Assembly: GCF_015690345.1 (NCBI RefSeq)
Contig: NZ_JADPUN010000342.1
Coordinates: 1-51,652, forward strand
Reading direction: 5' to 3'
Length of the DNA stretch: 51,652 bases
Origin: Plantactinospora alkalitolerans
GTDB lineage: Bacteria > Actinomycetota > Actinomycetes > Mycobacteriales > Micromonosporaceae
Positions 7,940 to 46,696 of the stretch are shown piece by piece. The position numbers were made by a program, and so were the translations under genes. Within the stretch, counting starts at the first letter, position 1. Every line of letters begins with the position of its first letter. The notes under the pieces are model-generated. The model saw nothing but the letters and a program-made list of their open reading frames with translations, ran no database searches and was not told the origin of the DNA.

Positions 7940-8986
7940 GTGACGACCGTTGCGACCCGATCGACCAGGCCGGGGGAGGGCCGGCGGCGCCGTGCCACCC
8001 GGCGCGTCGCGGTCACCACCGGGGCGGCGGTACTGCTGGTGCTGGTGGTGCTGGCGAGTCTTGCGCTGGGTAGCAAGCCCCTCGCCCCCGGTCAGGTCTG
8101 GCACGCTCTGGTCGCGCCGGACGGCGGCGAGGCCAGCACCATCGTCCGAGAGCTGCGGGTCCCGCGTACCCTGCTCGGCCTCACCGTCGGACCGGCCCTG
8201 GCCCTCGCCGGGGTGCTGCTACAGGCGCTGACCCGCAACCCTCTGGCCGAGCCACGGATTCTCGGCGTCAGCGCCGGTGCGTCCCTGGGGGTGGTCGTCG
8301 CGATCGCGGTCTTCGGCATCGGCAGCCTCGCCGGGTACGTCTGGTTCGGCGTCGTCGGCGCACTTCTCGCCGGGCTGCTGGTCTTCGGCATCGCCAACCG
8401 GGCCCGGGAGGGCGCCAGCCCGGTGACCCTGGCCCTGGTCGGCGTTGCCCTCGACGCGAGCCTCGGCGCGATGGTCATCGCCCTGCTGACCGTCGACGCA
8501 CGCACCTTCGAGGAGTACCGGTTCTGGGTGGTCGGCGGGCTCACCGGCCGGGACGTCGGAGTCACCGCCCAGGTCGCGCCCTTCGTCCTGGCCGGCGTCC
8601 TGCTCGCCGGCTTCGCCGCCCGGGGCCTGGACGCGCTGGCCCTCGGCGACGACGTGGCCCGGGGGCTCGGCCACCACGTCGGGCTGGTCCGGCTGGCCGG
8701 CGGTGCCGCAGCCGTACTGCTCATCGGGGCGGCCGTGGCCGGGGCCGGGCCGATCGCGTTCATCGGACTGGCCGTGCCGCACCTGGCCCGCGCCCTGGTC
8801 GGCACCGACCACCGCTGGACCCTGGTGCTGGCCGCGCTGCTCGGCCCGGCGCTACTGCTCACCGCCGACGTCGTCGGCCGGCTGGTCGCGCCCCCGGGAG
8901 AGGTGCCGGCCGGCATCGTCACCGCGCTGCTCGGCGCGCCGCTGCTGGTCGTGCTGATCCGCCGGGCCCGGGTGGTGACCGCATGA
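7940..8986 (+). CDS. FecCD-family iron-siderophore ABC permease 1
   Basis: A 348-residue inner-membrane permease. The FecCD signature segments are present: LTVGPALALAGVLLQALTRN, PLAEPRILGVSAGASLGVV, and the coupling region ARGLGHHVGLVRLAGG followed by GPIAFIGLAVPHLAR. About ten hydrophobic helices are expected and visible. GTG 7940 was chosen because GAGGAA lies eight bases upstream; a GTG at 7925 is in frame but lacks a ribosome site. It opens a four-gene operon controlled by the iron box upstream and pairs with the next permease as a heterodimer that imports ferric siderophores. Confidence 0.92.
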   Translation: MTTVATRSTRPGEGRRRRATRRVAVTTGAAVLLVLVVLASLALGSKPLAPGQVWHALVAPDGGEASTIVRELRVPRTLLGLTVGPALALAGVLLQALTRNPLAEPRILGVSAGASLGVVVAIAVFGIGSLAGYVWFGVVGALLAGLLVFGIANRAREGASPVTLALVGVALDASLGAMVIALLTVDARTFEEYRFWVVGGLTGRDVGVTAQVAPFVLAGVLLAGFAARGLDALALGDDVARGLGHHVGLVRLAGGAAAVLLIGAAVAGAGPIAFIGLAVPHLARALVGTDHRWTLVLAALLGPALLLTADVVGRLVAPPGEVPAGIVTALLGAPLLVVLIRRARVVTA

Positions 8987-9008
8987 CGAGGCGGAGCGAG
9001 GAGCGGCC

Positions 9009-10046
9009 ATGACCGCACTGCCCGTGGGCCGGACACTGGTCCGGCTCGGCCCCGCCCGTCTGGTCGTACGGCACCGACCGCTGCTGGTCGGCGGCGTCCT
9101 GGTCGTCCTGCTCGCCGCCGCCGTCGTACTGAGTCTGTCGCTCGGCACCCCGTACGTCGCCCCGGTCGACGTGCTCCGATCGGTCTCCGGCGCCGGTACC
9201 CGGTACGACCTGGTCGTGCTCGACCTGCGGCTGCCCCGGGTCGTACTGGCCGCGCTGGTCGGTGCCGTGTTCGGCATCGCCGGCACCCTGATCCAGAGCG
9301 TCGCCCGGAACCCGTTGGCGAGCCCCGACGTCGTCGGCGTCACCCAGGGCGCCGGGCTCGCCGCCACGGTGGCGTTGACCAGTGGTGCCGCCGCGCCGCT
9401 CATCGCGCCGGCAGCGCTCGCCGGCGGGCTCGCCGCCACGGTCGTGGTGCTGCTGCTCGGACTCCGGCACGGGTTGGCCGCGCAACGGTTCGTGCTGGCC
9501 GGGGTCGCCGTCGCGGTGGCACTGCGGGCGCTGACCGAGGTCGTGATGCTCTCCGCGGACCCGATCGACGGGCTGCGTGCACAACTCTGGCTGGTCGGCA
9601 CGCTGGCCGGCAAGGGTTGGCGCGAGGCCGCGTACCTCGGGATGACCCTGCTGGTGCTGCTGCCGGTGCTGCTCTGGGCCGGCTGGGCGTTGAACGGCAG
9701 TGCGCTCGACGACGACACCGCACGCGGGGTCGGACTCCGCCCGGTGGCCCGCCGGGTGGGCCTGGCCACCACCGGCGTCCTCGCCGCCGCGATGGTCACC
9801 GCGCAGGTCGGCGCGGTGGACTTCGTGGCCCTGGTCGCCCCGCAGGTGGCCCGGCGGCTGGTCCGCGCCGAGCGACCGCCGCTGGTCTGCGCCGCGCTGG
9901 TGGGCGCGCTCCTGGTCGTCCTCGCCGACCTGGCCGGACGCCGGCTGTTCGCCCCCACCCAACTGCCCGCCGGCGTGCTGACCGCCGCCCTCGGCGGGCC
10001 GTACCTGATCTACCTGCTGCTCCGCGGTCGACGGAAGGTCTCCTAG
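9009..10046 (+). CDS. FecCD-family iron-siderophore ABC permease 2
   Basis: A 345-residue FecCD permease, the heterodimer partner of the preceding gene. It carries LVGAVFGIAGTLIQSVARNP, LASPDVVGVTQGAGLAATV, the cytoplasmic coupling helix ARGVGLRPVARRVGLATTGV and VDFVALVAPQVARRL. A GAGGAG ribosome site precedes ATG 9009, 22 bp after the first permease. The stop TAG is followed immediately by the ATG of the ATPase gene, which implies coupled translation. Confidence 0.92.
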   Translation: MTALPVGRTLVRLGPARLVVRHRPLLVGGVLVVLLAAAVVLSLSLGTPYVAPVDVLRSVSGAGTRYDLVVLDLRLPRVVLAALVGAVFGIAGTLIQSVARNPLASPDVVGVTQGAGLAATVALTSGAAAPLIAPAALAGGLAATVVVLLLGLRHGLAAQRFVLAGVAVAVALRALTEVVMLSADPIDGLRAQLWLVGTLAGKGWREAAYLGMTLLVLLPVLLWAGWALNGSALDDDTARGVGLRPVARRVGLATTGVLAAAMVTAQVGAVDFVALVAPQVARRLVRAERPPLVCAALVGALLVVLADLAGRRLFAPTQLPAGVLTAALGGPYLIYLLLRGRRKVS

Positions 10047-10898
10047 ATGCTCTCCACTCGCGATCTCTCGGTCGGGTACGACGACCGGACCGTTCTCGAC
10101 GGGCTCGACCTCGACCTGCCCGCCGACGCGTTCACCGTCATCGTCGGGCCGAACGCCTGCGGCAAGTCGACGCTGCTGCGCACCATGGCCCGGTTGCTCA
10201 CGCCGCGCCGGGGCACCGTGTTGCTGGACGGGACGGCGATCCGGGACCTGCCGACCCGCGCGGTGGCCCGCCGGCTGGGAGTGCTCCCGCAGAGTCCGCT
10301 GGTGCCCGAGGGGGTCACCGTCGCAGACCTGGTCGGCCGGGGGCGGCAGCCGTACCAGCGGTGGTGGCGGCAGTGGTCGCCGTCCGACGAGGTCGCGGTC
10401 GCCGAGGCGATGGAGTTGGCCGACGTCCAGGAGTTGGCCGAGCGGCCCGTCGACACCCTCTCCGGCGGGCAGCGGCAGCGGGTCTGGATCGCCATGACAC
10501 TGGCCCAGGACACCGAGGCGCTGCTGCTCGACGAGCCGACCACCTTCCTCGACCTCGCCCACCAGGTGGAGGTCCTCGACCTGCTGCACCGGCTGCGTAC
10601 CGAGCGCGGCCGGACCGTCGTCGCCGTCCTGCACGACCTCAACCAGGCCGCCCGGTACGCCGATCACCTGGTCGCGATGCGGGCGGGTGCGGTCGTCGCG
10701 GCCGGGCCACCCCGGCAGATCCTCACCGTGGACCTGGTCCGCGAGGTCTTCGGGCTCGACTGCGTTGTCGTGCCCTGTCCGGTGACCGGGGCGCCACTGG
10801 TCGTCCCGACGCTTCGCACATCGTCCGTTACGAAAGGTTCGTCATGCGCCGCAGAGTTCTCGCCCTCCTCGCCGTCGCCGCCATCGGTGCCGGCCTGA
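10047..10898 (+). CDS. siderophore ABC transporter ATP-binding protein (FecE-like)
   Basis: A 283-residue cytosolic ATPase energising the two FecCD permeases. Walker A is GPNACGKST (about residues 36-44), the ABC signature is LSGGQRQRVWIA, Walker B is ALLLDEPTTFLD, and the switch histidine is in VVAVLHDLNQAARYAD. The alanine-cysteine in the P-loop (GPNACGKST) is common in FecE-type proteins. The last 55 bases overlap the start of the binding-protein gene in another frame, so the C-terminal 18 residues or so (ending PSPPSVPA) are probably unconserved. Confidence 0.92.
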   Translation: MLSTRDLSVGYDDRTVLDGLDLDLPADAFTVIVGPNACGKSTLLRTMARLLTPRRGTVLLDGTAIRDLPTRAVARRLGVLPQSPLVPEGVTVADLVGRGRQPYQRWWRQWSPSDEVAVAEAMELADVQELAERPVDTLSGGQRQRVWIAMTLAQDTEALLLDEPTTFLDLAHQVEVLDLLHRLRTERGRTVVAVLHDLNQAARYADHLVAMRAGAVVAAGPPRQILTVDLVREVFGLDCVVVPCPVTGAPLVVPTLRTSSVTKGSSCAAEFSPSSPSPPSVPA

Positions 10899-11794
10899 CC
10901 GGATGCGCCAGCAGCGATCCGGTGGTCGGAGAGGAGGCCGCCGGCCAGACCCGGACCATCACCCACGCGATGGGCAGCACGAAGGTGCCGGCGCATCCGC
11001 AGCGGGTGGTGGTGCTGGACTCCGACAAGATCGACACGGCGCTGTCCCTCGGCGTGACCCCGATCGGCGCGGCACAGGCAGGTGAGGTCGCCGGCTGGCC
11101 GACGTACTTCGGTGCCGAGGCCGTCGCCGGGATCAAGCAGGTCGGCCTGCTCACCGAGCCCGACCTGGAGGCGATCAGCGCCCTGCAACCGGACCTGATC
11201 CTGGGCAGCAAGTTCCGCCAGGAGAAGTTCTACGACGAGCTGTCCGCGATCGCGCCCACCGTCTTCACCGAGCGGGTCGGCATCACCTGGAAGGAGAACT
11301 TCCTCCTCGACGGGCAGGCGCTCGGCAAGGAGCAGGAGGCCAAGGACCTGCTCGCCGCGTACGAGAAGCGGGCCAAGGATGTCGGCGCCAGGATCGGTAA
11401 CCCGGGGGAGCGGAAGATCTCGATCGTCCGGTTCCGTCCCACCGAGATCCGGGTGTACGGGCCGGCGTCGTTCTCCGGCCTGGTGCTCGGCGACGTCGGA
11501 CTGGGGCGTCCCGAGCGGCAGCTTCTGACCGACAAGGAGGACAAGCGGTTCGACAAGGTGAGCCTCGAACGGATCGCCGAACTCGACGGGGACATCATCT
11601 TCGTGACCGCCTTCGGCGAGAAGGCCGCGGCCGAGCAGGCCAAGGTGACCGGCGGCAGCCTGTGGCGGAACCTCGGGGCGGTCAAGGCGGGCCGGACCCA
11701 CGTGGTCGCCGACGAGACGTGGATGACCGGAATCGGGGTCACCGCCGCCGGAAAGATCCTCGACGACCTGGAGAAGTACGTGCCGGCGGCCTGA
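10844..11794 (+). CDS. iron-siderophore-binding lipoprotein (FecB/FepB-like)
   Basis: A 316-residue lipoprotein that captures ferric siderophore outside the membrane. The signal peptide ends in lipobox LTGC with Cys21. The periplasmic-binding-protein fold of the TroA/FhuD class follows: HPQRVVVLDSDKIDTALSLG, then PDLEAISALQPDLILGSKF, and late ISIVRFRPTEIRVYG. The start at ATG 10844 is preceded by GAAAGG and lies inside the ATPase gene, suggesting coupling. No siderophore biosynthetic gene is in view, so the ligand may be a xenosiderophore or be made elsewhere. Confidence 0.92.
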   Translation: MRRRVLALLAVAAIGAGLTGCASSDPVVGEEAAGQTRTITHAMGSTKVPAHPQRVVVLDSDKIDTALSLGVTPIGAAQAGEVAGWPTYFGAEAVAGIKQVGLLTEPDLEAISALQPDLILGSKFRQEKFYDELSAIAPTVFTERVGITWKENFLLDGQALGKEQEAKDLLAAYEKRAKDVGARIGNPGERKISIVRFRPTEIRVYGPASFSGLVLGDVGLGRPERQLLTDKEDKRFDKVSLERIAELDGDIIFVTAFGEKAAAEQAKVTGGSLWRNLGAVKAGRTHVVADETWMTGIGVTAAGKILDDLEKYVPAA

Positions 11795-30842: not shown

Positions 30843-31472
30843 ATGTCAACCATGGGTCAGAAACGAAACTCCTCGTCCCAGCGACGCGCCTCCGTGCTCG
30901 CTGCGGCGATCCGGATCTTCGGCAGCAAGGGCTTCGCCGCAACCACCACGGCAGACATCGCCCGCGAGGCCGCCGTGAGCCAGCCCTACGTGGTGTCCCT
31001 GTTCGGCAGCAAAGACGCGCTCATCCGAGCCGCGATCGAGCACGCGCTCGACAGAGTGGTCGAGGTGTTCGAGCAGACGATCGACGACGACGCAGCTGGC
31101 GACCTCGCACCGCGTATCGGCGTCGCCTACCTTCAACTGTTCAAGGAGCAGGGATTGCAACTCTGCCTCGCGCACGCCTTCACCGCCGGCACCGATCCGG
31201 AGATCGGGCCACTCGCCAGAGACGGCTTCCTCCGCGTCTACCGAGTGCTCGTCAACCGCGGCGATCTCACACCCGAACAAGCCAGTCAGACCCTCGCCGC
31301 CGGCATGATGGCCAACGTCATCCTCGGCTTACGTCTGGCCGACGACTACGACCGTGAACCCGTAATACGCGAACTCCTCTCGGCGACCTACCCGAGCAAT
31401 GTCGAGCTCCTCAGGACCGTCACCAGTGCCTACGATGGCGTCGCCCCTCCACAAGGTGGGGCCGGCGTTTGA
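30843..31472 (+). CDS. TetR-family regulator
   Basis: A 209-residue repressor with HTH at about 14-58: ASVLAAAIRIFGSKGFAATT and ADIAREAAVSQPYVVSLFGS. The C-terminal part (LAPRIGVAYLQLFKEQGLQL and the AAGMMANVILGLRL helix) is of the TetR_C type. ATG 30843 directly follows the palindromic GTTAT...ATAAC site and has no ribosome site, so the message may be leaderless; ATG 30852 is the alternative. The divergent DUF1772 gene is its probable target. Confidence 0.9.
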   Translation: MSTMGQKRNSSSQRRASVLAAAIRIFGSKGFAATTTADIAREAAVSQPYVVSLFGSKDALIRAAIEHALDRVVEVFEQTIDDDAAGDLAPRIGVAYLQLFKEQGLQLCLAHAFTAGTDPEIGPLARDGFLRVYRVLVNRGDLTPEQASQTLAAGMMANVILGLRLADDYDREPVIRELLSATYPSNVELLRTVTSAYDGVAPPQGGAGV

Positions 31473-37805: not shown

Positions 37806-38417
37806 ATGCACACCGATCGACGGATCACACGTACCCGGCGGGCGCTGTACCGCGCGCTGGTGGACCTGACCACGGCGGGCGGTTTCGAGGCCGTGACGGT
37901 CGCGGACCTCACCGGGCGGGCCGGTGTCAACCGGACCACGTTCTATCGGCACTACCAGGACAAGTACGTCTTCGTCACCACCATCGTCGAGCAGGGCCTC
38001 GACCGACCGGTACGCGCGTTGCGCACCGCCTACCGGGCCCGGTCGCGGGTGGCCCAGGTGTACGCGCTGGAGGCGGTCTTCGGCCACGTCGAGCAGCACC
38101 GGCAGTTGTATCTCGCCCTGCTCGGCCGGCGCCAGAGCCCGTGGTTCGCCGACTGGCTGCACGGCTACTGGCGGGAGACGACGACCAGTCTGCTCTGCGA
38201 GGATCCGGCGCACGACGTACGGGATCCGCGCACCGGAGTGGCCGCGGTGCTGGCCGCACACGCACTCATCGGCGCGGTGAGCTGGTGGCTCGAACCGGAC
38301 CTGCCGGCACCGGCGAGCGACATGGCCGAGTGGTACGCCGACTTCCTGCGCGGCGGGCTCTCCGGACTGCTGGCCGCCGACGAGGCGCCGCCGGAGGTGA
38401 CCGTCGGGATCAACTAG
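37806..38417 (+). CDS. TetR-family regulator beside the RiPP cluster
   Basis: A 203-residue TetR protein. HTH at about 6-52: RRITRTRRALYRALVDLTTA, then VADLTGRAGVNRTTFYRHYQ. The C-terminal domain (VYALEAVFGHVEQHRQLYLA, then HALIGAVSWWLEPDLPAPAS) is the TetR_C_7/8 type common in firmicutes and actinobacteria. GGAGG precedes ATG 37806. Its stop overlaps the tfuA stop by 8 bp on the opposite strand, so the two genes have been packed together; whether it regulates the cluster is not shown. Confidence 0.9.
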   Translation: MHTDRRITRTRRALYRALVDLTTAGGFEAVTVADLTGRAGVNRTTFYRHYQDKYVFVTTIVEQGLDRPVRALRTAYRARSRVAQVYALEAVFGHVEQHRQLYLALLGRRQSPWFADWLHGYWRETTTSLLCEDPAHDVRDPRTGVAAVLAAHALIGAVSWWLEPDLPAPASDMAEWYADFLRGGLSGLLAADEAPPEVTVGIN

Positions 38418-39111
38418 GGCGGCCGGAATCGCGGGTCCGGCCGGCGCCGGAGGCACTGGGTTCGGGTCCGCCGCTCCGGCGGATGCGCCGCAGCAGCGCC
38501 AGCGCGTCCGTGCGTTTGGCGTCGGCGGCGGGATCGGCCAGGTATGCCGCCAGCCCGGCGCACTCCGGCTTACCGAACTCCGCCGCCAACAGGCGGAGCA
38601 CCCCGGCACGGGTGCGCTGCGGGAAGTAGGTCGCCTTGCCCAGCGCCAGGAACCGCTGCACCAGTGGTTCCGGCACGGCGCCGGCGGCGACCCCGGCGGC
38701 GAGCGCGATCCGCCAGTTGACCAGCGGCTCGGACATCGCCCGACCGGTCTCCTCGTCATAGGCGATCGCCACCTCGTCGTCCGCGTCGACCCGGCCGGAG
38801 GCGTACTCCTCGTACACCCTGCCGACCCCGACCATGCCGTACGGCGCGCACTCGACCGCCCGCAGCGCGCCCATGCTCGACGAGCCGTAGACGCTGATGC
38901 CGGCGTCGATCGCCCGCAGCACCTCCTTCGGAGAGATCGCCATGCTGTGCAGGAAACGTCCGTCGACGATTCCGATCGTGTCCGGGCGCCGTGACCGGGT
39001 CAGCAGGGCGTCGATATCTCCCCGGCGCACCGGAGGGAGATACTCGGCGTCGAGCTCCCGCTCCGCGTCCGCCCGATCGAGGCTCGGGCCCAGGAAAACC
39101 ACCACGCTCAT
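38410..39111 (-). CDS. tfuA: TfuA-like protein, partner of YcaO
   Basis: A 233-residue TfuA-domain protein. The family blocks are clear: VVVFLGPSL at the N-terminus, RRGDIDALLTRSRRPDTIGI, VDGRFLHSMAISPKEVLRAI, GISVYGSSSMGALRAVECAP, and YGMVGVGRVYEEYASGRVDA followed by DDEVAIAY. In known systems TfuA helps YcaO make thioamides, probably by delivering sulfide hydrolysed from a ThiS-like or other sulfur donor. Its ATG overlaps the ycaO stop (4 bp), so the pair is translated together. A C-terminal extension (RRSGGPEPSASGAGRTRDSG) is disordered. It lies convergent to the TetR gene. Confidence 0.93.
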   Translation of the reverse strand: MSVVVFLGPSLDRADAERELDAEYLPPVRRGDIDALLTRSRRPDTIGIVDGRFLHSMAISPKEVLRAIDAGISVYGSSSMGALRAVECAPYGMVGVGRVYEEYASGRVDADDEVAIAYDEETGRAMSEPLVNWRIALAAGVAAGAVPEPLVQRFLALGKATYFPQRTRAGVLRLLAAEFGKPECAGLAAYLADPAADAKRTDALALLRRIRRSGGPEPSASGAGRTRDSGRPS

Positions 39112-40433
39112 CCGGCCACCACCGGCTCTCGTCGCACCTCCCGCAGCGCCGCGTTCCAGGCTGCGGTCGCTCGGGCGCCGATCTTCGACCGGTCGATCGC
39201 CCAGGACTCCAGGCCAGGCACGATCATCCGGACCACCTTGACGGGTATTCCCGGCGGCGAGAGATCCACGGCGATCGCCCGGCTGATACCGGCGGCGCTC
39301 AGCCGGTCCAGGATGAACCGGAGGTCGGCCAGCACGTCGTCGCTGCGCAACGACTCGTCGGTACCGCCGTCGGTCTGATCGCCGTGGTCCTGCCAGATCC
39401 AGGCGTGCCGGTTGAGCATGACCGAACGCTCGTGCGGCCTACCGAATCTTCCGGGATCGGTCGGCATGATCAGGTCCTCGCGCATGGCCTGGATGTCCAC
39501 CGCCCGGCCCTGCGCGCACTCGGTGATCGCCCGCATCATCGCGACCTCGGCGTTCGGATGCGTGCCGATGCCGCTGAAGGTCGTGGACATGGTCGGTCCG
39601 AAGTCCTCGGTGTTGGTCGCGAAGTACGTGGGCACGCCGAGGTCGGATGTCAGCCGGATCAGCCGGACCTCGAGCCCGGCCTGGTGGAACCGGTCGGCGA
39701 CGGACTGTACCCCGGGCGGGGTTCCGGAGAGGTCCACCCGGGGATGCCGCATCGCCAACGGCATGACGTCCACCGTCGTGCCCCTGGCCTCGGCCGTCCG
39801 CAGCAGCGACTGGCTGAGCCGGTGGCTGATCAGTTCGGCCAGCGTCATCGCGTCGCGCTCGACCAGCTCACACAGCGCGTGGCAGATCGCTTCCTCGAGG
39901 CTGTTGCCGGCGGCCAGGCCGTTGGTGGTGGTCAACGGATACGGCGTCCGCTCGTGCGGTCGTCGCTGGTAGACCGCCGCGTCGTGCGGCACCAGGACAC
40001 CGCACTCGTTGAGCAGGTCCCAGCCTTCGACCCAGGAGATCGGCCCGTCGTCGCGGTAACCGGGCACGACCGCGAAGCTGTGCTCGCGCGGATCCAGCAC
40101 CGGCCGGCCGTCCGCGCTCAGTTCCGAGTACGACGCCACCGCGTCCGGACGTACCGGCAGCCAGGCGGAGAACCGCTCCAGCGCCTCCATCGCGGCCGAC
40201 GTCCGGGCCGCGAGCGGAGTGACGCCCTTGCCGTTGTAGACCGAGATGATGTCGTTGGAGCGTGGGGAGATCGCGCTGTACACCGGGATGCCGAGCCGGT
40301 CGAGGCCGGTGAGGTCGGCCATCCGGGTCACACCGATCCGGCGGAGATGACCGCTGATCCGCTCCCAGGTCACCTCGGCCGGGAACTCGTGGGTGGCACC
40401 GCCGCCCTTGACGACCCGATCGCGCAGTCTCAA
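39108..40433 (-). CDS. ycaO: YcaO-domain ATP-dependent peptide backbone-modifying enzyme
   Basis: A 441-residue YcaO protein. ATP/Mg motifs are intact: SAAMEALER at 79-87, EAICHALCELVERDA at 181-195, and RAITECAQGR at 301-310. These are the three conserved helices whose acidic residues bind nucleotide and magnesium. The enzyme activates backbone amides; with TfuA, known YcaOs make thioamides. The C-terminus (REVRREPVVAG) lacks the PxPxP end of azoline-forming cyclodehydratases, and no E1-like or ocin-ThiF partner is nearby. It starts at TTG 40433 after GGGG and lies 98 bp downstream of the candidate precursor gene. The product is probably a thioamidated peptide. Confidence 0.93.
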   Translation of the reverse strand: MRLRDRVVKGGGATHEFPAEVTWERISGHLRRIGVTRMADLTGLDRLGIPVYSAISPRSNDIISVYNGKGVTPLAARTSAAMEALERFSAWLPVRPDAVASYSELSADGRPVLDPREHSFAVVPGYRDDGPISWVEGWDLLNECGVLVPHDAAVYQRRPHERTPYPLTTTNGLAAGNSLEEAICHALCELVERDAMTLAELISHRLSQSLLRTAEARGTTVDVMPLAMRHPRVDLSGTPPGVQSVADRFHQAGLEVRLIRLTSDLGVPTYFATNTEDFGPTMSTTFSGIGTHPNAEVAMMRAITECAQGRAVDIQAMREDLIMPTDPGRFGRPHERSVMLNRHAWIWQDHGDQTDGGTDESLRSDDVLADLRFILDRLSAAGISRAIAVDLSPPGIPVKVVRMIVPGLESWAIDRSKIGARATAAWNAALREVRREPVVAG

Positions 40434-40531
40434 CCCGCACCCCTGTCATGGCCGCGACCGCCGGGTGGCCCGCCGACGCGTCCGGCCGCAGCGGTGACGC
40501 CGGGCCGGGCGGGCCGCCGGGCCACCGGCGA

Positions 40532-40711
40532 TCAGTTCCGGATCTCGGCGGGCAGCAGCGCGAAGGGCTGGCTCAAGCCCTGCAGGCCGTCGGCGACCGA
40601 GGAGCCGAAGCCCGCCTCGAGGAACTCCTGGAGCCCTTCCGGCGTGAACTCCTCGGTGGTCCATTCCGCTGTGTCGAGGCCGCGTACCTCTTCCAGAGTC
40701 GTCTGCGCCAT
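40532..40711 (-). CDS. candidate RiPP precursor peptide
   Basis: A 59-residue peptide with a strong AAGGAG ribosome site seven bases ahead of ATG 40711. The first 35 residues or so are acidic and helical in appearance (TTLEEVRGLDTAEW, then TEEFTPEGLQEFLEAG), as expected for a leader recognised by a modifying enzyme. The C-terminal part (GLSQPFALLPAEIRN, residues 45-59) is the likely core. There is no cysteine and few Ser/Thr, so azole formation is unlikely; thioamidation of backbone positions by the downstream YcaO-TfuA pair fits. No known precursor family is recognised. Cleavage site and core borders are unknown. Confidence 0.75.
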   Translation of the reverse strand: MAQTTLEEVRGLDTAEWTTEEFTPEGLQEFLEAGFGSSVADGLQGLSQPFALLPAEIRN

Positions 40712-40806
40712 CGTCAGTCTCCTTCGCTGGACTTGCCCGAGCCTCCGGGCCGGCCCGGCGGGCACCGAACCGTGCGATCAGCGTGCGTCAACGCTTGCCG
40801 TGGAAC

Positions 40807-40834
40807 AAGCAACACCTGGCGTCAGGTGTTGCTT
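40807..40834. promoter_or_regulatory. perfect 12-bp-arm inverted repeat upstream of the precursor gene
   Basis: AAGCAACACCTG (40807-40818) and CAGGTGTTGCTT (40823-40834) flank a GCGT loop. On the minus strand it lies 78 bp after the methyltransferase stop and 95 bp before the precursor start, just upstream of a TTGACG -35-like hexamer (40786-40791). It may be an operator of the cluster or a terminator for the methyltransferase; no T-run follows. Confidence 0.6.
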
Positions 40835-40912
40835 AGCCAACATCAATGACCATCTGTGCCGGATCGATTAACATGCCGCGAACACGACGCGGCGGTCGCC
40901 GCGCGGGCCGGG

Positions 40913-41650
40913 TCAGGCCCGTTCGTAGACCGAGACGTGGCTGCCGCTGCTGGAGTCGAAGGGGCGCCGGTCCCAGTCGCTGTAGCGTGCGCGCAGCCGG
41001 AGGCCGGCCAGCCGCGCCATCAGGTCCAGTTCGCTGGGCCAGCAGTACCTCAGCGTGACCGGATGCAGCTGCATCCCCTCCGCGCTCAGCCGGACGTGCT
41101 GGTACGTCACCCGTTGCCGGCTCGAGTCGTGCCGGGCGAACGACACGTCCACCAGGTGCTCCGAAACGGCTCTCGTATGCACGAGTTGGCCCCGGTCGAA
41201 CGGCAGGTGGTCCGGCATGAAGCACTCGATCACGAAGAACCCGCCGGGATCGAGTACCCGTGCGACGTTGCGGAAGCAGTCGACCTGCCGCTCCTGGCTG
41301 GTGAGGTTGAACAGCGTGTTGTAGATCAGGTACACCAGTCCGTACGGCCCGGTCACCGGAACGTCGGCCATGTCACCGATCGCGACCGGTATCGAATTCC
41401 CGCCCGGTTTCTCGCGCAGCCGGTCGACCATCGCCTGGGACGCCTCGACGCCCTCGACCTCGATTCCCCTGGCGGTGAGCGGCAGCGCGACCCGGCCGGT
41501 CCCGATCGCCAGTTCCAGGGCGCGGCCGTGGCCGCTGCCGGTCTGCCAGACGAGGAACTCCACGGCCGCGGCCGGGTCGATCTCGGTCCGCTCGTCGTAG
41601 ACGGCCGCCCACCGGTCGCCGAAGAACGCGGGATCTTCAAAGCCAGACAT
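40913..41650 (-). CDS. class I SAM-dependent methyltransferase
   Basis: A 245-residue Rossmann methyltransferase. Motif I is ALELAIGTGRVALPLTARGI (about 39-58), motif post-I is VEGVEASQAMVDRLRE, motif II is GLVYLIYNTLFNLTSQ with the usual ARVLDPGGFFVIECFMPDH motif III. The C-terminal half is beta-rich (VTYQHVRLSAEGMQLHPVTL, RYSDWDRRPFDSSSGSHVSV). The best-supported start is ATG 41650 (MSGFEDPAFFGDRWA). It is 201 bp upstream of the precursor gene on the same strand, so it could methylate the peptide, but it could also be an independent small-molecule enzyme. Confidence 0.85.
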   Translation of the reverse strand: MSGFEDPAFFGDRWAAVYDERTEIDPAAAVEFLVWQTGSGHGRALELAIGTGRVALPLTARGIEVEGVEASQAMVDRLREKPGGNSIPVAIGDMADVPVTGPYGLVYLIYNTLFNLTSQERQVDCFRNVARVLDPGGFFVIECFMPDHLPFDRGQLVHTRAVSEHLVDVSFARHDSSRQRVTYQHVRLSAEGMQLHPVTLRYCWPSELDLMARLAGLRLRARYSDWDRRPFDSSSGSHVSVYERA

Positions 41651-41824: not shown

Positions 41825-43234
41825 TCAGCCGACCGACTTGTTGTAGCTGTCGATCTCCGGCTGGATGCTCGCGGCGGCGTCCTTCATCGCCTGCTCGGCC
41901 GGCTTGGCGCCGACGATGGCCGCCTCCAGGCCGTCCTCGGACGCCTTACGGGCCTGCGGCATCGTTCCCAGCAGGCACCCGGCGGACGCGACCGACGGCG
42001 GCAGCGCGTGCAGCTGGTCGACGGCGGTACGGAACTGCGGGTACTGGGCGACCCAGTCCTTGTCGATCTGCTCCTCCAGCGCCTTCGGGTTGATCGGCAC
42101 GTAGCCGGTGCCGGTGTGCCACTGCGCCTGCTGGGCCGCACCGGAGGCGAACTTCACGAACTCCCAGGCGGCCCGCTTCTCGGCGGCGCTGTGCCCCACC
42201 CCGTTGATCCAGAGCGACGCACCGCCGATGATCGGTCCACCGGCGGAGGCGTCATTGATCTTCGGGTACGGCGCGGTCAGCACCGTGAACTTGCCCTTGG
42301 CGGCGTCGACGTACCCGCGTAGCACACTTGTCGACTCGAGGTGCATCGCGACCGTACCGGCCTTGAACGCCGCCTGGGCGTCGTCGGTCTTCCGGCCGGT
42401 GTTCGTCGCGTAGCCGCCCCGGACCAGGTCGGCCCACCACTGCGCCACCTGCACCCCGGCCGCCTGGTCGAACTGGACCTTCGTCGCCAGCTTGTCACGC
42501 CCGTTGCCGTTGTCGCAGTACTCCTTGCCGTCGGTCGCGAGCAACTGCTCCAGCAGCCATCCGTAGATGGCCGCGCCGAAGCCGTACTGGGTGGTCTTGC
42601 CGCCGCCGTCCTTCACGGTCAGCCGCTTGGCCAGGTCGCCGATCTCGGCGAGGGTCTTCGGCGGTTTGGTCGGGTCGGCGCCGACCCGCTCGAACGCCTC
42701 CTTGTTGAGATAGAGCAGCGGGGTCGACGAGTTGAACGGCATCGACCAGAGCTTGCCCTCGACCGAGTAGTAGCTGGCGATGTTCGGCTCGATGTCGGCG
42801 GTGTTGAAGCCGTCCTTCTCGATGAACTTGTGCATCGGGACGACCTGCTTGGAGTCCACCATGAACCGGCTGCCGATGTCATAGACCTGGACCAGCGCCG
42901 GGGTGCTCTTCTGCTGCACCGACGCCTTGTACTTGGCGATCGTCTCGTCGTAGCTGCCCTGGAAGACCGGCTTGACCTCGACCTTGCCGCCGCTGCTGGC
43001 GTTGAAGTCGGCGACCAGCTTGTCGACGGCGGCGGCGTTCGCACCCTTCATGGCGTGCCAGAACTCGACGGTCGTCTTGCCGCCGGCGGAGTCGAGTGCC
43101 TCGGCGCCGGGCGCGTCGAGAGCGTCGGCGGAGTCGCCGTCGTCGCCACCCGAGCCGCAGCCGGCGACGAGCGTGCTGGCGACGAGCACGGCGAGGGCCA
43201 GCCGGCCCGTCCGGCGTAACCGCGAAGATGCCAT
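41825..43234 (-). CDS. carbohydrate ABC transporter substrate-binding lipoprotein (UgpB-like)
   Basis: A 469-residue solute-binding lipoprotein. Signal peptide with lipobox LVAGC, Cys26, is followed by an Asp/Ala-rich linker and the cluster B (family 1) binding fold: TVEFWHAMKGANAAAVDKLV, then FNSSTPLLYLNKEAFERVG, GFGAAIYGWLLEQLLATDGK, IGGASLWINGVGHSAAEKRA and WEFVKFASGAAQQAQWHTGT. The WHAM...N and GGASLWI blocks resemble UgpB-like glycerol-3-phosphate/sugar binders. AAAGGAG precedes ATG at 43234. It is the last gene of the operon, 40 bp after the binding-protein start is the stop of the permease upstream. Confidence 0.92.
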   Translation of the reverse strand: MASSRLRRTGRLALAVLVASTLVAGCGSGGDDGDSADALDAPGAEALDSAGGKTTVEFWHAMKGANAAAVDKLVADFNASSGGKVEVKPVFQGSYDETIAKYKASVQQKSTPALVQVYDIGSRFMVDSKQVVPMHKFIEKDGFNTADIEPNIASYYSVEGKLWSMPFNSSTPLLYLNKEAFERVGADPTKPPKTLAEIGDLAKRLTVKDGGGKTTQYGFGAAIYGWLLEQLLATDGKEYCDNGNGRDKLATKVQFDQAAGVQVAQWWADLVRGGYATNTGRKTDDAQAAFKAGTVAMHLESTSVLRGYVDAAKGKFTVLTAPYPKINDASAGGPIIGGASLWINGVGHSAAEKRAAWEFVKFASGAAQQAQWHTGTGYVPINPKALEEQIDKDWVAQYPQFRTAVDQLHALPPSVASAGCLLGTMPQARKASEDGLEAAIVGAKPAEQAMKDAAASIQPEIDSYNKSVG

Positions 43235-43274
43235 TGCTACTCCTTTTGAGAGATTCGACGGTCCCTGGCAGGGC

Positions 43275-44105
43275 TCACCGGAGTGCGCCCGCCGTGAGCC
43301 CGCGGACGATGTACCGCTGGCCGAAGATCACGACGGCGAGCGTGGGAAGCAGCGAGAGCGCGACGCCAGCCAGGATGAGCCCCGGTTGGGCCGCCTCGGC
43401 GTCGTTGAGCTGCGAGATACCGATCTGCAGGGTCTGGTAGTCGGCGTCCCGGATCAGGATCAGCGGCCAGAAGTACTGGTTCCAGGCGGAGAGGAAGACG
43501 TAGACCCCGACGGCGGCGATCGACGGCTTGGACAGCGGCACGATCACCCGCCACAGCAGTCGCCAGTGGCCGCAGCCGTCGATCACCGCCGCGTCCCGCA
43601 ACTCGCCCGGAAACTGGAGGAACGCCTGGCGCAACAGGAAGGTACCGAACGCCGAGGCGAGGAACGGCAGGACCAGGCCGAGATAGGTCAGCCCGCCCCG
43701 GGCCAGCCCCCAGTCGGAGATGGCCAGGTAGTTGGGGATGATGATCGCTTCCCACGGCACCATCAGGGTGGCCAGGAAGAGACCGAAGGTCGCCGCCTTC
43801 GCCGGCATCCGGAGGAATGCGAAGGCGTACGCGGCGAGGATGCTGGTCACCACCTGGGCGAGGGTGATCACGCCGGCCTGGACGGCGGAGTTCAGGTAGA
43901 ACCGGCCCAGCGGCACGGACGCGAACACGTCGCCGAAGTTCTCCCAGCGCAGCGCGCTCGGCACCAGTGACGGCGGATAGGTGGCCAGGTCACCGGGGCC
44001 CATCACCGCACCGGCGAAGGCGTAGTAGACCGGGAACAGCACCGGGATCAGGGCCAGCCCGAGTACGACGTAGACGACGATCCGTCCCGCCTGTGGTCGT
44101 CTCAT
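43275..44105 (-). CDS. carbohydrate ABC permease (UgpE/MalG-like)
   Basis: A 276-residue binding-protein-dependent permease with six helices. The EAA loop is clear: LRDAAVIDGCGHWRLLWRVI followed by VPLSKPSIAAVGVYVF, where it contacts the ATPase. LIPVLFPVYYAFAGAVMGPG is the first helix. It pairs with the preceding UgpA-like protein. Its ATG overlaps the upstream permease stop by 4 bp. No ATPase gene is in the operon; a shared MsiK-type ATPase encoded elsewhere is usual in actinobacteria. Confidence 0.93.
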   Translation of the reverse strand: MRRPQAGRIVVYVVLGLALIPVLFPVYYAFAGAVMGPGDLATYPPSLVPSALRWENFGDVFASVPLGRFYLNSAVQAGVITLAQVVTSILAAYAFAFLRMPAKAATFGLFLATLMVPWEAIIIPNYLAISDWGLARGGLTYLGLVLPFLASAFGTFLLRQAFLQFPGELRDAAVIDGCGHWRLLWRVIVPLSKPSIAAVGVYVFLSAWNQYFWPLILIRDADYQTLQIGISQLNDAEAAQPGLILAGVALSLLPTLAVVIFGQRYIVRGLTAGALR

Positions 44106-45049
44106 CGGTAGTGCACCCGCCGTTCCAGGACGCCGAACTGCACCGCCGTGCAGATCAGCATGATCACCAGTAGCACCACCGCCTGAGCGCTCGCGCCGCC
44201 GAAGTCCGACGAGCCGAACGCGAACGCCTTCTCGTAGATCGAGTAGACCAGGGTGGTGGTCGCGTCGTCCGGGCCTCCCTTGGTCAGGATGTGGATCTGA
44301 CCGAAGCTCTGCAAGGCGTGGATCGTGGAGACCACGACAAGAAAGAACAACTGCGGCGAGAGCAGCGGGATCGTGATGCCGGTGGCCAGTCGCCACCCCG
44401 TGGCACCGTCGAGCCGGGCCGCCTCCACCACCTCGGGTGGGATGGCCGCCACCCCGGCGGAGAGCACCAGGACGTTGTAGCCGAGGTTCATCCAGACCGT
44501 GGCCAGACCGACGGCGGGCAGCGCGATCGAGGGGTCGGTGAGCCAGTTGACCCGGTCGACACCGATCGCGCCGAGCAGCCCGTTCGCGATCCCGATTGCC
44601 GGGTTGTAGATGACGGCGAAGACCACCGACGCGGTGGCCACCGAGAACGCGAACGGCAGGGCGAAGGCGGTCCGCAGCAGCCGTACGCCCCGCAGCCGCG
44701 CCTCCAGCAGCAACACCACGACGAGCGCGCCGAGCACGGCGGGCAGCACGCTGATCAGCGTGAACAGCGCGGTGGTGCCGAGCACCTTGCCGAACTCGCC
44801 GGTCAACATCTCGGTGTAGTGGTCGACGCCGACGTAGGTGCTCGGCGCCCCGAAGATGTCGTTGCCGTGGGTGGACAGATAGAAGGTCCGGGCCAGCGGC
44901 CAGAAGATGAACAGGGCGAAGACCACGACCGAGGGCAGCAGCAGCAACCAGGAGAGCCCGCCTTCACGCCGTGGCCTGCCACGCGTCGGTGGTGGGCGAC
45001 CGGCGGCCGCTCCGGTCCGAGAGCGCTCTACAGCCAGAGGGGGAGACAC
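44102..45049 (-). CDS. carbohydrate ABC permease (UgpA/MalF-like)
   Basis: A 315-residue permease. A basic, proline-rich cytosolic N-terminus (about 1-31) precedes six helices, starting LSWLLLLPSVVVFALFIFW. The EAA loop is PPEVVEAARLDGATGWRLAT followed by GITIPLLSPQLFFLVVV. GTG 45049 is the only start before the first helix, but no ribosome site is seen, so a leaderless message is possible. A palindrome AGAGCGCTCT, like LacI-family operators, lies inside codons 7-10. Confidence 0.92.
   Translation of the reverse strand: MSPPLAVERSRTGAAAGRPPPTRGRPRREGGLSWLLLLPSVVVFALFIFWPLARTFYLSTHGNDIFGAPSTYVGVDHYTEMLTGEFGKVLGTTALFTLISVLPAVLGALVVVLLLEARLRGVRLLRTAFALPFAFSVATASVVFAVIYNPAIGIANGLLGAIGVDRVNWLTDPSIALPAVGLATVWMNLGYNVLVLSAGVAAIPPEVVEAARLDGATGWRLATGITIPLLSPQLFFLVVVSTIHALQSFGQIHILTKGGPDDATTTLVYSIYEKAFAFGSSDFGGASAQAVVLLVIMLICTAVQFGVLERRVHYR
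45020..45029. promoter_or_regulatory. LacI-family operator-like palindrome AGAGCGCTCT
   Basis: A perfect 10-bp palindrome of the GAGCGCTC type used by LacI-family sugar regulators lies 20-29 bases inside the first permease gene of the sugar-uptake operon. Binding there would block early elongation or a leaderless promoter. A weaker palindrome (TGTTA...TAACA, 45102-45119) lies farther upstream. No LacI gene is in view. Confidence 0.45.
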
Positions 45050-45241: not shown

Positions 45242-45760
45242 TCAGGAGTGCGTCCAGCCGGCCGCGTGCAGGGAATTGTGGAACCAGCTGCCGGGGGTCG
45301 CGTATGCGACGGTGCGCGGTTGCCACCAGGCGGCCCGGATGTGCGGGCGCTCCTGGTGCGGGAAGGCGGCGAGCGTCTGCGCCAGGTTCTGTGTTTCGGG
45401 TCGGGGCAGCGTCGCGATGGCCTCGTCCGGGGTCAGGCCGAACGGCTCGGTCAACTCGGGGTGCGCCCGGAGGTGGTTCTCGGCGTGGTGGACCACTGCG
45501 GTCAGTCTCCGCTGGAGCAGCCTGGGGTCGGGCTCCCCGGCCGCTTCCCGCAGCTCGGTCAGCTTCCCGGTCGGGCCGAACACCGGCAGCAGCCGCCGGC
45601 CATTGACGTCGAAGAATTCAAGGTCGTTCCGGTGGTCGCTGTCGGGAGCCATGATCGAGTCTTCGCGCAGGGCCCGCAGATCCGGGTAGGCGTGCGCGAA
45701 CGTGTCGTCACTGGCTACGGCGACGATGCCGTCCCGGGCTACTTCTCGTTGTTCTTCCAC
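45242..45760 (-). CDS. unrecognised 172-residue protein, tandem copy 1
   Basis: The third gene of the array in transcription order. The product (VEEQREVARDGIVAVASDDT...) contains DLEFFDVNGRRLLPVFGPTG, a DPRLLQRRLTAVVHHAENHL helix, PFGLTPDEAIATLPRPE and a conserved end HIRAAWWQPRTVAYA...WFHNSLHAAGW. No signal peptide or membrane helix is seen, and no family is recognised. GTG 45760 is chosen because GGAGGA lies eight bases upstream in all three copies; an in-frame ATG 18 bases earlier exists only in this copy. A TAAAAT -10-like box is at 45809-45814. It is the most diverged of the three. Confidence 0.75.
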   Translation of the reverse strand: MEEQREVARDGIVAVASDDTFAHAYPDLRALREDSIMAPDSDHRNDLEFFDVNGRRLLPVFGPTGKLTELREAAGEPDPRLLQRRLTAVVHHAENHLRAHPELTEPFGLTPDEAIATLPRPETQNLAQTLAAFPHQERPHIRAAWWQPRTVAYATPGSWFHNSLHAAGWTHS

Positions 45761-45985
45761 AGCCGTGTCCTCCGTCATCGTTGCTACGCGGCCTGACGAT
45801 GATTTTCGATTTTATTCACGGAACAGGAATTCGACCGTCCTCTATCTGCGACTACGTCTGCCAGCACGCGTGGGAAGCGACACCCGCTGGTACTGGTGCA
45901 CGGGCGTACCCGAAGGGTTGGCGACGACAGGGCGGAACCGTCCCGTCGAGCCGTGCTCGTCGGCGTCGCGCTCCTGGTCTGAAGG

Positions 45986-46504
45986 TCAGGGGTGCGCCCA
46001 GCCGGCCGCGTGCATGGCGTTGTGGAACCAGTTGCCGTTGGTCGCGTATACGACGGTACGCGGTTGCCACCAGGCGGCCCGGATGTGCGGGCGCTCCTGG
46101 TGCGGGAAGGCGGCGAGCGTCTCGGCCAGGCTCTGCGTCTCGGGTCGGGGCAGCATCGCGATGGCCGCCTCCGGGGTCAGGCCGAACGGCTCGGTCAACT
46201 CGGGGTGCGCCCGGAGGTGGTCTTCGGCGTGCCGGACCACCGCGGCCAGTCTCCGCTGGAGCAGCCCCGGGTCGGGCTCCCCGGCCGCTTCCCGCAGCTC
46301 GGTCAGCTTCCCGGTCGGGCCGAACACCGGCAGCCGCCGCCGGCCATTGACGTCGAAGAATTCCAGATCGTTCCGGTGATCGCTGTCGGGAGCCATGATC
46401 GAGTCTTCGCGCAGGGCCCGCAGATCCGGGTAGGCGTGCGCGAACGTGTCGTCAGTGGCTACTGCGACGACGCCGCCCCGGGCTACTTCTCGTTGTCTTT
46501 CCAC
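45986..46504 (-). CDS. unrecognised 172-residue protein, tandem copy 2
   Basis: The same length and architecture as its two neighbours, beginning VERQREVARGGVVAVATDDT. Conserved blocks are HAYPDLRALREDSIMAPDSD, HRNDLEFFDVNGRRRLPVFG, PFGLTPEAAIAMLPRPETQS and IRAAWWQPRTVVYATNGNWF. In this copy the ATG seen upstream in copy 1 is ATC, which confirms the GTG at 46504 as the true start (GGAGGA spacing eight). A TACAAT -10 box is at 46554-46559 on the minus strand, and the preceding 60 bp match those upstream of copy 3. Confidence 0.75.
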   Translation of the reverse strand: MERQREVARGGVVAVATDDTFAHAYPDLRALREDSIMAPDSDHRNDLEFFDVNGRRRLPVFGPTGKLTELREAAGEPDPGLLQRRLAAVVRHAEDHLRAHPELTEPFGLTPEAAIAMLPRPETQSLAETLAAFPHQERPHIRAAWWQPRTVVYATNGNWFHNAMHAAGWAHP

Positions 46505-46696
46505 AGCCGTGTCCTCCGTGATCGATGCGCTACGCGGCCTGACCTGATCGTTGATTGTATTTCCGGCAGCGGGCATCCGAAGGTCCCCACTCGACACTCG
46601 ATTTGCCGGAACCCGTGGGAAGGGACAAGCCGGGATCTTGCCGTAGGGCGTACCGATCGGCTCCTGTTGACCTCGGCCGGAGGCGCGGTCCGAAGG

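Follow-up and report, generated by a model that had tools for sequence, protein, structure and literature searches.

What can a short peptide gene make together with one YcaO and one TfuA protein? This question is raised by a locus of Plantactinospora alkalitolerans (Micromonosporaceae) on NZ_JADPUN010000342.1, which was analysed at its full length of 51,652 nucleotides (hereafter the window) and is one entire contig of a 9.2-Mb draft genome. We consider it likely that the locus encodes a linear ribosomally synthesized and post-translationally modified peptide (RiPP) that carries thioamides as its only modification and is related to the thioamitides and thiovarsolins. The basis is computed and consists of the gene layout, the homologues, the conserved enzymes, a shared leader and a correlation of core residues with gene content. 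YcaO-TfuA thioamidation is rare, and the many other steps in the pathways of the complex antitumour thioamitides make it hard to study there; a locus of three genes, in which a thioamitide-like leader precedes a core without other targets, would offer a clean substrate for asking how leader, YcaO and TfuA pick a backbone amide.

The peptide gene and its two enzymes

The elements concerned are:
40532..40711, minus strand: precursor peptide gene, 59 codons plus stop (open reading frame (ORF) 40535-40711 with ATG start, stop codon 40532-40534); leader residues 1-45, predicted core 46-59
40719..40724, minus strand: precursor ribosome site AAGGAG, 7 nt ahead of the ATG, read directly from the sequence
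40616..40645, minus strand: conserved leader motif TPEGLQEFLE, precursor residues 23-32, from alignment and profiles
40535..40576, minus strand: predicted core LSQPFALLPAEIRN, residues 46-59, after LQG, with the border placed from thioamitide precursors
40464..40526, minus strand: strong hairpin between precursor and ycaO, a possible attenuator or mRNA-processing element
39108..40433, minus strand: YcaO, ATP-dependent backbone-activating enzyme (TTG start; PF02624, E 1.5e-76)
38410..39111, minus strand: TfuA, sulphur-delivering partner of YcaO (PF07812, E 5e-38)

The coordinates behind the original prediction were confirmed, namely a 59-codon gene with a good ribosome site, a 4-bp overlap between ycaO and tfuA, and a methyltransferase gene 201 bp upstream of the precursor ORF on the same strand. 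Its reading of a YcaO-TfuA RiPP-type locus that most likely thioamidates the 59-mer also holds, given two adjacent, full-length enzymes and precursor homologues at other YcaO-TfuA loci.

The 59-mer is more than a chance ORF, because a profile built from thioamitide precursors only ranks it first among the small ORFs of the window and because homologues occur upstream of ycaO elsewhere. This profile comprised ten thioamitide precursors and is independent of the five-precursor tests described below. Of 1180 ORFs in six test loci, it ranked the six candidate precursors in the first six places, with the window 59-mer third (E 0.0056; best other ORF 0.93), which points, though weakly, to a thioamitide-type leader in the window precursor. 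Relatives of TfuA or YcaO were taken from named genomes (8 loci) and from further genomes. In G048 (L004, L023) a 49-residue peptide with 39% identity to the 59-mer over 41 residues is encoded upstream of ycaO, and three Asanoa species carry a 45-48-residue peptide with the leader motif in the same place. Such homologues beside other YcaO-TfuA pairs were what the original prediction had proposed to look for, and with G048 and Asanoa its claim survives this check. The leader motif TPEGLQEFLE is common to window, thioamitide, thiovarsolin-type and Asanoa precursors.

A second profile was built from five minimal precursors (window, L023 and the three Asanoa loci). Searched against 397 genomes of the order, it matched three at E 0.001, two of them sources of training rows and one new, G217, in which the match is the precursor of a thioamitide cluster. 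Against 1784 small ORFs of a first set of loci, its best matches outside the training rows were the thioamitide precursors of L026, L016, L022 and L019 (E 1e-7 to 2e-5), followed by those of L021 and L018 (0.03 and 0.08), while the best other ORF reached 0.73. In another 14 loci with 1697 ORFs, it recovered four thioamitide precursors (three at E 3e-9 to 3e-6; L074 at 0.06) and the L069 precursor with three AP(R/K) repeats (E 9e-6; best other ORF 0.41). The precursor of L066 is unreadable because its contig starts just upstream of ycaO. Several locus numbers are duplicates (L033 and L047 of L019; L034 and L048 of L022; L040 of L021; L050 of L016; L055 of L018; L108 of L046; L049 is the place of L065), and the Asanoa loci L015, L017 and L020, which equal L122-L124, were counted once.

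Of the positions that are invariant in the 28 other pairs of the thioamidating group (29 rows including the window), the window retains 40/42 in TfuA and 77/81 in YcaO. Its YcaO is 49-56% and its TfuA 50-58% identical to those of eleven thioamitide loci. The nearest solved structures by sequence are 6pe3 (MJ1094) for YcaO and 6xp8 (a TfuA-domain protein) for TfuA, both of which we take to be archaeal, and the top NCBIfam matches of both enzymes are McrA-glycine thioamidation families, each under its cut-off. Ser79 and Lys199 of TfuA, invariant in 36/36 rows, are candidates only for a Ser-Lys pair. Four ThiS-family matches elsewhere in the host genome are relevant because TfuA is reported to obtain its sulphur from ThiS-thiocarboxylate (PMC8153245, PMC13185837). 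Deletion of tsaH or tsaI is described as leading to the loss of all detectable product (PMC8153245). The TfuA of the window is the sole TfuA match in the host genome. The other YcaO of the genome is remote and lies on a separate contig (C160:10744-11793; a 704-residue open frame), in which no TfuA-family match was found; near the window locus there is no second YcaO, whose presence would mark a thioamidated thiopeptide.

Core residues and proposed chemistry

In the precursor alignment, the LQG of the window sits at the Q-G that precedes the core in 14/16 thioamitide loci (Q in 16/16; the 16 loci hold only 11 distinct cores), and we place the putative leader/core border between LQG and LSQPFALLPAEIRN. 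The marker genes for thioamitide clusters were those of the Streptosporangium locus L016, typed by Pfam as kinases (one of the two under Pfam's cut-off), HopA1, flavoprotein, PRMT-like methyltransferase, PhyH and C1 peptidase. In tblastn they mark 16 loci as thioamitide clusters, whereas at E 1e-3 they have no match in the whole window, in L023 or in the three Asanoa loci. Ser/Thr1, Ser/Thr8, His12 and Cys13 of the core are present in 16/16 thioamitide loci, but 0/4 of these residues occur in the window core, which has Leu, Leu, Ile and Arg at positions 1, 8, 12 and 13, and likewise 0/4 in the L023 core with Gly, Gln, Ala and Arg. For thiostreptamide S4, gene deletions and precursor mutation are reported to link the targets to a pyruvyl group, dehydrobutyrine 8 (Dhb8), a methylated and hydroxylated His and a decarboxylated Cys (PMC8153245); the four residues are thus those on which the enzymes for dehydration, histidine tailoring and decarboxylation act. 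At the window, neither the genes nor the target residues for the macrocycle, pyruvyl and histidine chemistry of thioamitides are present. Tailoring genes and their targets are absent as a set, and the step that remains is one needing no particular side chain. The predicted core contains one Ser (Ser47) and neither Cys, Thr, Tyr nor His, and the window precursor contains neither APR nor GPR. Pro4 and Pro9 of the core are common to the window and L023, and Pro9 is also found in five thioamitide loci.

From these features we infer thioamidation, its site, proteolysis and a linear product. The thioamitide-type leader of the 59-residue precursor would presumably dock on YcaO, which would spend ATP on activating backbone amides of the core. 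TfuA would deliver sulphide, which in archaea comes from ThiS-thiocarboxylate, and at one or a few sites sulphur would take the place of backbone oxygen. The best candidate site is core Pro4 (Pro49-Phe50), favoured because Pro is thioamidated in thiovarsolins and because the thioamides of thioamitides are reported to begin at core residues 2 and 3, from where they continue through the linear part. With no dedicated protease seen, release of the core, or of a fragment protected by its thioamides, would fall to host peptidases, as has been suggested for thiovarsolins. That the peptide is a small secreted metabolite is our guess. The computed monoisotopic masses are 6396.106 Da for the 59-mer, 1567.872 Da for the 14-residue core and 1583.849 Da for the core with one thioamide (+15.977).

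Relatives, known systems and competing readings

Among 354 genomes of the family, 14 hold a YcaO at E 1e-80 or better: six in reduced loci (the window, three Asanoa, L127 and L121), two in thioamitide loci, three in loci with a second YcaO and three unassigned. Among the 7 genomes of the genus that were searched, TfuA occurs in the window's genome alone. Loci with a second YcaO were labelled thiopeptide-like; the label was verified with Pfam for L072, which has a second YcaO as well as two Lant_dehydr_C proteins, and assumed for the rest. The congener locus L121 (G004:C1:3350500-3370400, a one-contig genome) has a related precursor at about 9207-9509 and a YcaO at 9537-10829 without TfuA, and the genome search found no TfuA in its genome; by eye its YcaO motif residues look intact, and the peptide end holds two cysteines. 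As a TfuA-free member of a thioamidating group, it would be worth testing. The reduced three-gene locus L127 (G1586) has its precursor within 10828-11007, YcaO at 9586-10797 and TfuA at 8894-9586, and its precursor of 41 residues ends in an Asanoa-like but proline-free tail. L126, L131 and L132 are YcaO-TfuA pairs of the same family in which neither profile finds a precursor and no second YcaO lies in the stretch examined; L131 is a long branch with weak flavoprotein and kinase matches.

Trees were calculated from joined YcaO and TfuA sequences with 36 rows (seven of them outgroup) and with 40 rows (two of those outgroup rows). In the 36-row tree, the window and L023 form a pair (90/85) inside a 16-row group (99/100) that also contains nine thioamitide loci, the Asanoa trio and two varsolin-type loci. 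In the 40-row tree the pair is kept (90/95), the surrounding group is poorly resolved, and seven thioamitide loci group with thiopeptide-like ones (95/100). The window thus has thioamitide-type pairs to either side of it. The approximately unbiased (AU) test rejects a single thioamitide clade (p-AU 7.4e-5, 40 rows), and it can therefore not simply be stated that the window lies outside the thioamitides. Constraining all seven minimal loci to one clade gives p-AU 0.57, and holding minimal and varsolin-type loci together gives 0.197 (36 rows) and 0.288 (40 rows).

The window resembles the thioamitides (thioviridamide, thiostreptamide S4 and kin) in leader motif, Q-G border and core register, but their tailoring genes, by tblastn, and their four core target residues are not found in it. 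With the thiovarsolins (varAYT) it shares the three-gene core of precursor, YcaO and TfuA in the varA-varY-varT arrangement, a related leader, a core proline and enzymes that the trees place on its own side, whereas the APR/GPR core of thiovarsolins, repeated in most members, has no counterpart. By tblastn, a relative of the Asanoa MFS gene was not found in the window, and the neighbour proteins scanned include no heme oxygenase, ATP-grasp or amidinotransferase. The layout is neither fully that of a thioamitide nor fully that of a thiovarsolin cluster, as had been noted from the letters alone. The RiPPER study (2019) obtained thiovarsolins B and D from varA, varY and varT alone, described thiovarsolins as N-acetylated APR tripeptides with a Pro-Arg thioamide, and credited their release to host peptidases and an acetyltransferase (PMC6511847). 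In the same study, four peptides from clusters called 'extremely different' nevertheless network with thioviridamide precursors, and the thiovarsolin network, Network 22, includes an Asanoa ishikariensis precursor that has no repeats (PMC6511847). The locus of the latter is very probably our L015, because that genome has a single TfuA match. The four 'non-thioviridamide-like' clusters of Network 5, compared by their published description, combine a thioviridamide-like precursor with a thioamitide overlap limited to YcaO, TfuA and precursor, as at the window (PMC6511847). Since varAYT has the same three parts and RiPPER already reports similar precursors, the 'new class' of the original prediction is unsupported; it was too strong a term for a thioamitide-like leader and core register and for enzymes that cluster with pairs of the thioamitide and thiovarsolin types. 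The std cluster of Streptomyces thermodiastaticus is described as another case of YcaO-TfuA backbone thioamidation (on Asn) as proposed here, but with a SNKEWQE core motif, which the window precursor lacks, an MNIO and a carbamoyltransferase (PMC13174530). A description of the window's peptide was not found in the main-text literature (TfuA with Asanoa; thioamidated RiPP with Micromonosporaceae), which does not cover supplements.

Tentatively, and stopping short of calling it probable, we suggest that the window is the founding case of a subtype of linear RiPPs that contain proline and bear thioamides only. This subtype would have arisen from a thioamitide cluster that lost the whole dehydration-macrocycle-histidine module along with the four residues on which the module acts, so that the YcaO-TfuA gatekeeper step is all that remains of the pathway, and thioamitides, thiovarsolins and these loci would form one continuum on one leader. 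For the trees, gene loss in the lineage of the window is the simpler explanation. That enzymes and target residues are missing together also points to a route, open to testing, from one RiPP family to another.

Several competing readings have to be weighed. The product could be a short, protease-proof thioamidated di- to tetrapeptide around Gln-Pro-Phe, released by host peptidases in the manner of thiovarsolins; as a variant of the preferred reading this does not exclude it, and we regard it as possible if somewhat doubtful. No peptidase is found among the ten neighbour proteins scanned, the N-acetylated APR tripeptides provide a reported precedent (PMC6511847), and L069 with its AP(R/K) repeats has a related leader and enzymes on the window's side of the tree. 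L069 is thiovarsolin-type because an MFS transporter and an ATP-grasp gene adjoin its repeats; a heme oxygenase was not recognised among its eight proteins scanned. However, the window core is unrepeated and aligns better with the 13-residue thioamitide cores, and the neighbour proteins scanned, which are not all window ORFs, include no heme oxygenase or ATP-grasp protein. The missing thioamitide genes, the altered core and the departures at otherwise invariant enzyme positions would also fit a decaying thioamitide cluster whose leftover makes nothing, as would TfuA in only one of the 7 genomes of the genus and the congener L121 with YcaO but no TfuA. We find this quite improbable in view of two full-length enzymes that retain nearly all invariant positions and of reduced loci with intact precursors that persist in G048, the three Asanoa species and G1586, the first four with an intergenic hairpin. 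Hardly credible, finally, is an oxazoline at Ser47 instead of a thioamide. YcaO proteins are reported to make azolines as well (PMC8120280) and the core has its one Ser, but TfuA is present, the closest families are thioamidating and the core is free of Cys and Thr. Linear azole-containing peptides have an E1-like or RiPP recognition element (RRE) partner and a Cys/Ser/Thr-rich core, and by Pfam neither such partner is found among the ten neighbour proteins.

The preferred reading of a thioamide-only linear RiPP has evidence against it too. The window differs at six otherwise invariant positions (YcaO 15, 28, 175 and 333; TfuA 158 and 196). The thioamitide-only profile scores weakly on its precursor (13.3 bits, best domain E 0.022) and more weakly on L023 (0.056), and NF033415, the curated NCBIfam model for thioviridamide, whose cut-off is 40, reaches 14.2 bits. 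The leader/core border is set by alignment, and the likeness of the window and L023 cores is short, their two shared prolines being expected by chance in about 3 of 91 cases by our own arithmetic. Support for the window-L023 pair is under the starred level in both trees, and root position and module transfer would allow gain of genes as well as loss. Finally, L121 has no TfuA, and L127 and L121 (2/8 loci) have a short precursor-ycaO gap without a comparable hairpin, with no shuffles run on these two.

Flanking genes and intergenic elements

Around the three genes lie:
40807..40834, no strand: perfect 12-bp palindrome AAGCAACACCTG-N4-CAGGTGTTGCTT upstream of the precursor, a possible operator
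40913..41650, minus strand: class I methyltransferase (Methyltransf_25, 49 bits), membership doubtful
37806..38417, plus strand: TetR-family regulator, convergent with tfuA, a putative neighbour only

The original prediction had counted the methyltransferase in, but this enzyme is probably a bystander. Of 60 relatives, 35 have homologues at E 1e-20 or better, 5/6 congeners included; in those congeners the genome searches found no TfuA, and in G048, which has the matching ycaO-tfuA, the homologue is about 4 Mb distant; this wide spread and the missing linkage to ycaO-tfuA weaken membership. Near other minimal loci matches are weak, with 28% over 134 residues (L023) and 31% over 93 (L017). A conserved neighbourhood in the genus was considered and rejected: in a comparison of 22 window proteins with the surroundings of the methyltransferase homologues in five congeners, only one further gene matched (32% and 34% over 184 residues, in two regions), with the DUF2332 query out of frame and uninformative. 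A pathway in which the methyltransferase takes part and the peptide is both thioamidated and methylated is therefore unlikely. It would agree with the position of the gene on the same strand 201 bp upstream of the precursor, with its Methyltransf_25 domain and with its nearest NCBIfam model, that of the daptide RiPP methyltransferase, which it matches at 71.9 bits (cut-off 175). A precedent for an extra methyltransferase is reported in TsaMT of thiostreptamide S4, likewise pfam13649 (PMC8153245), and by analogy the enzyme may have been recruited at the window locus. The predicted core, however, offers it no Tyr or His.

Directly beyond the methyltransferase, on the same strand, follow ABC (ATP-binding cassette) importer genes for a solute-binding protein and two permeases (41825-45049), and nothing connects them to the peptide. 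The original statement that partner genes are missing nearby stands for an E1-like partner and a peptidase, both absent among the ten neighbours scanned, but is not strictly right for transporters. The range given at the time, 38410-41650, ends short of the TetR regulator, whose gene runs 8 bp into the end of tfuA.

The hairpin between precursor and ycaO has a z of -3.4, and 1/200 shuffles folds as well. Strong hairpins occupy this place in 6/8 loci (window, L023, L015, L017, L020 and L069), with at most 4/200 shuffles as good in each, and the element is likely a read-through attenuator that favours the precursor. At gathering thresholds, Rfam assigns no family anywhere in the window. The inner 20-base pattern of the palindrome between methyltransferase and precursor occurs exactly once in the genome, with four further places at two mismatches. 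A shared operator was rejected, as the 200 bases upstream of the L023, L015, L017, L020 and L069 precursors hold no palindrome with arms of at least 9.

Two observations concern other parts of the window. At 31141-31236 (minus strand), ARAGORN predicts an unusual tRNA-like gene whose anticodon has two bases. The frames 45242-45778, which has no Pfam match, and 45986-46597 (both minus strand) form a tandem pair whose translations are closely alike by eye.

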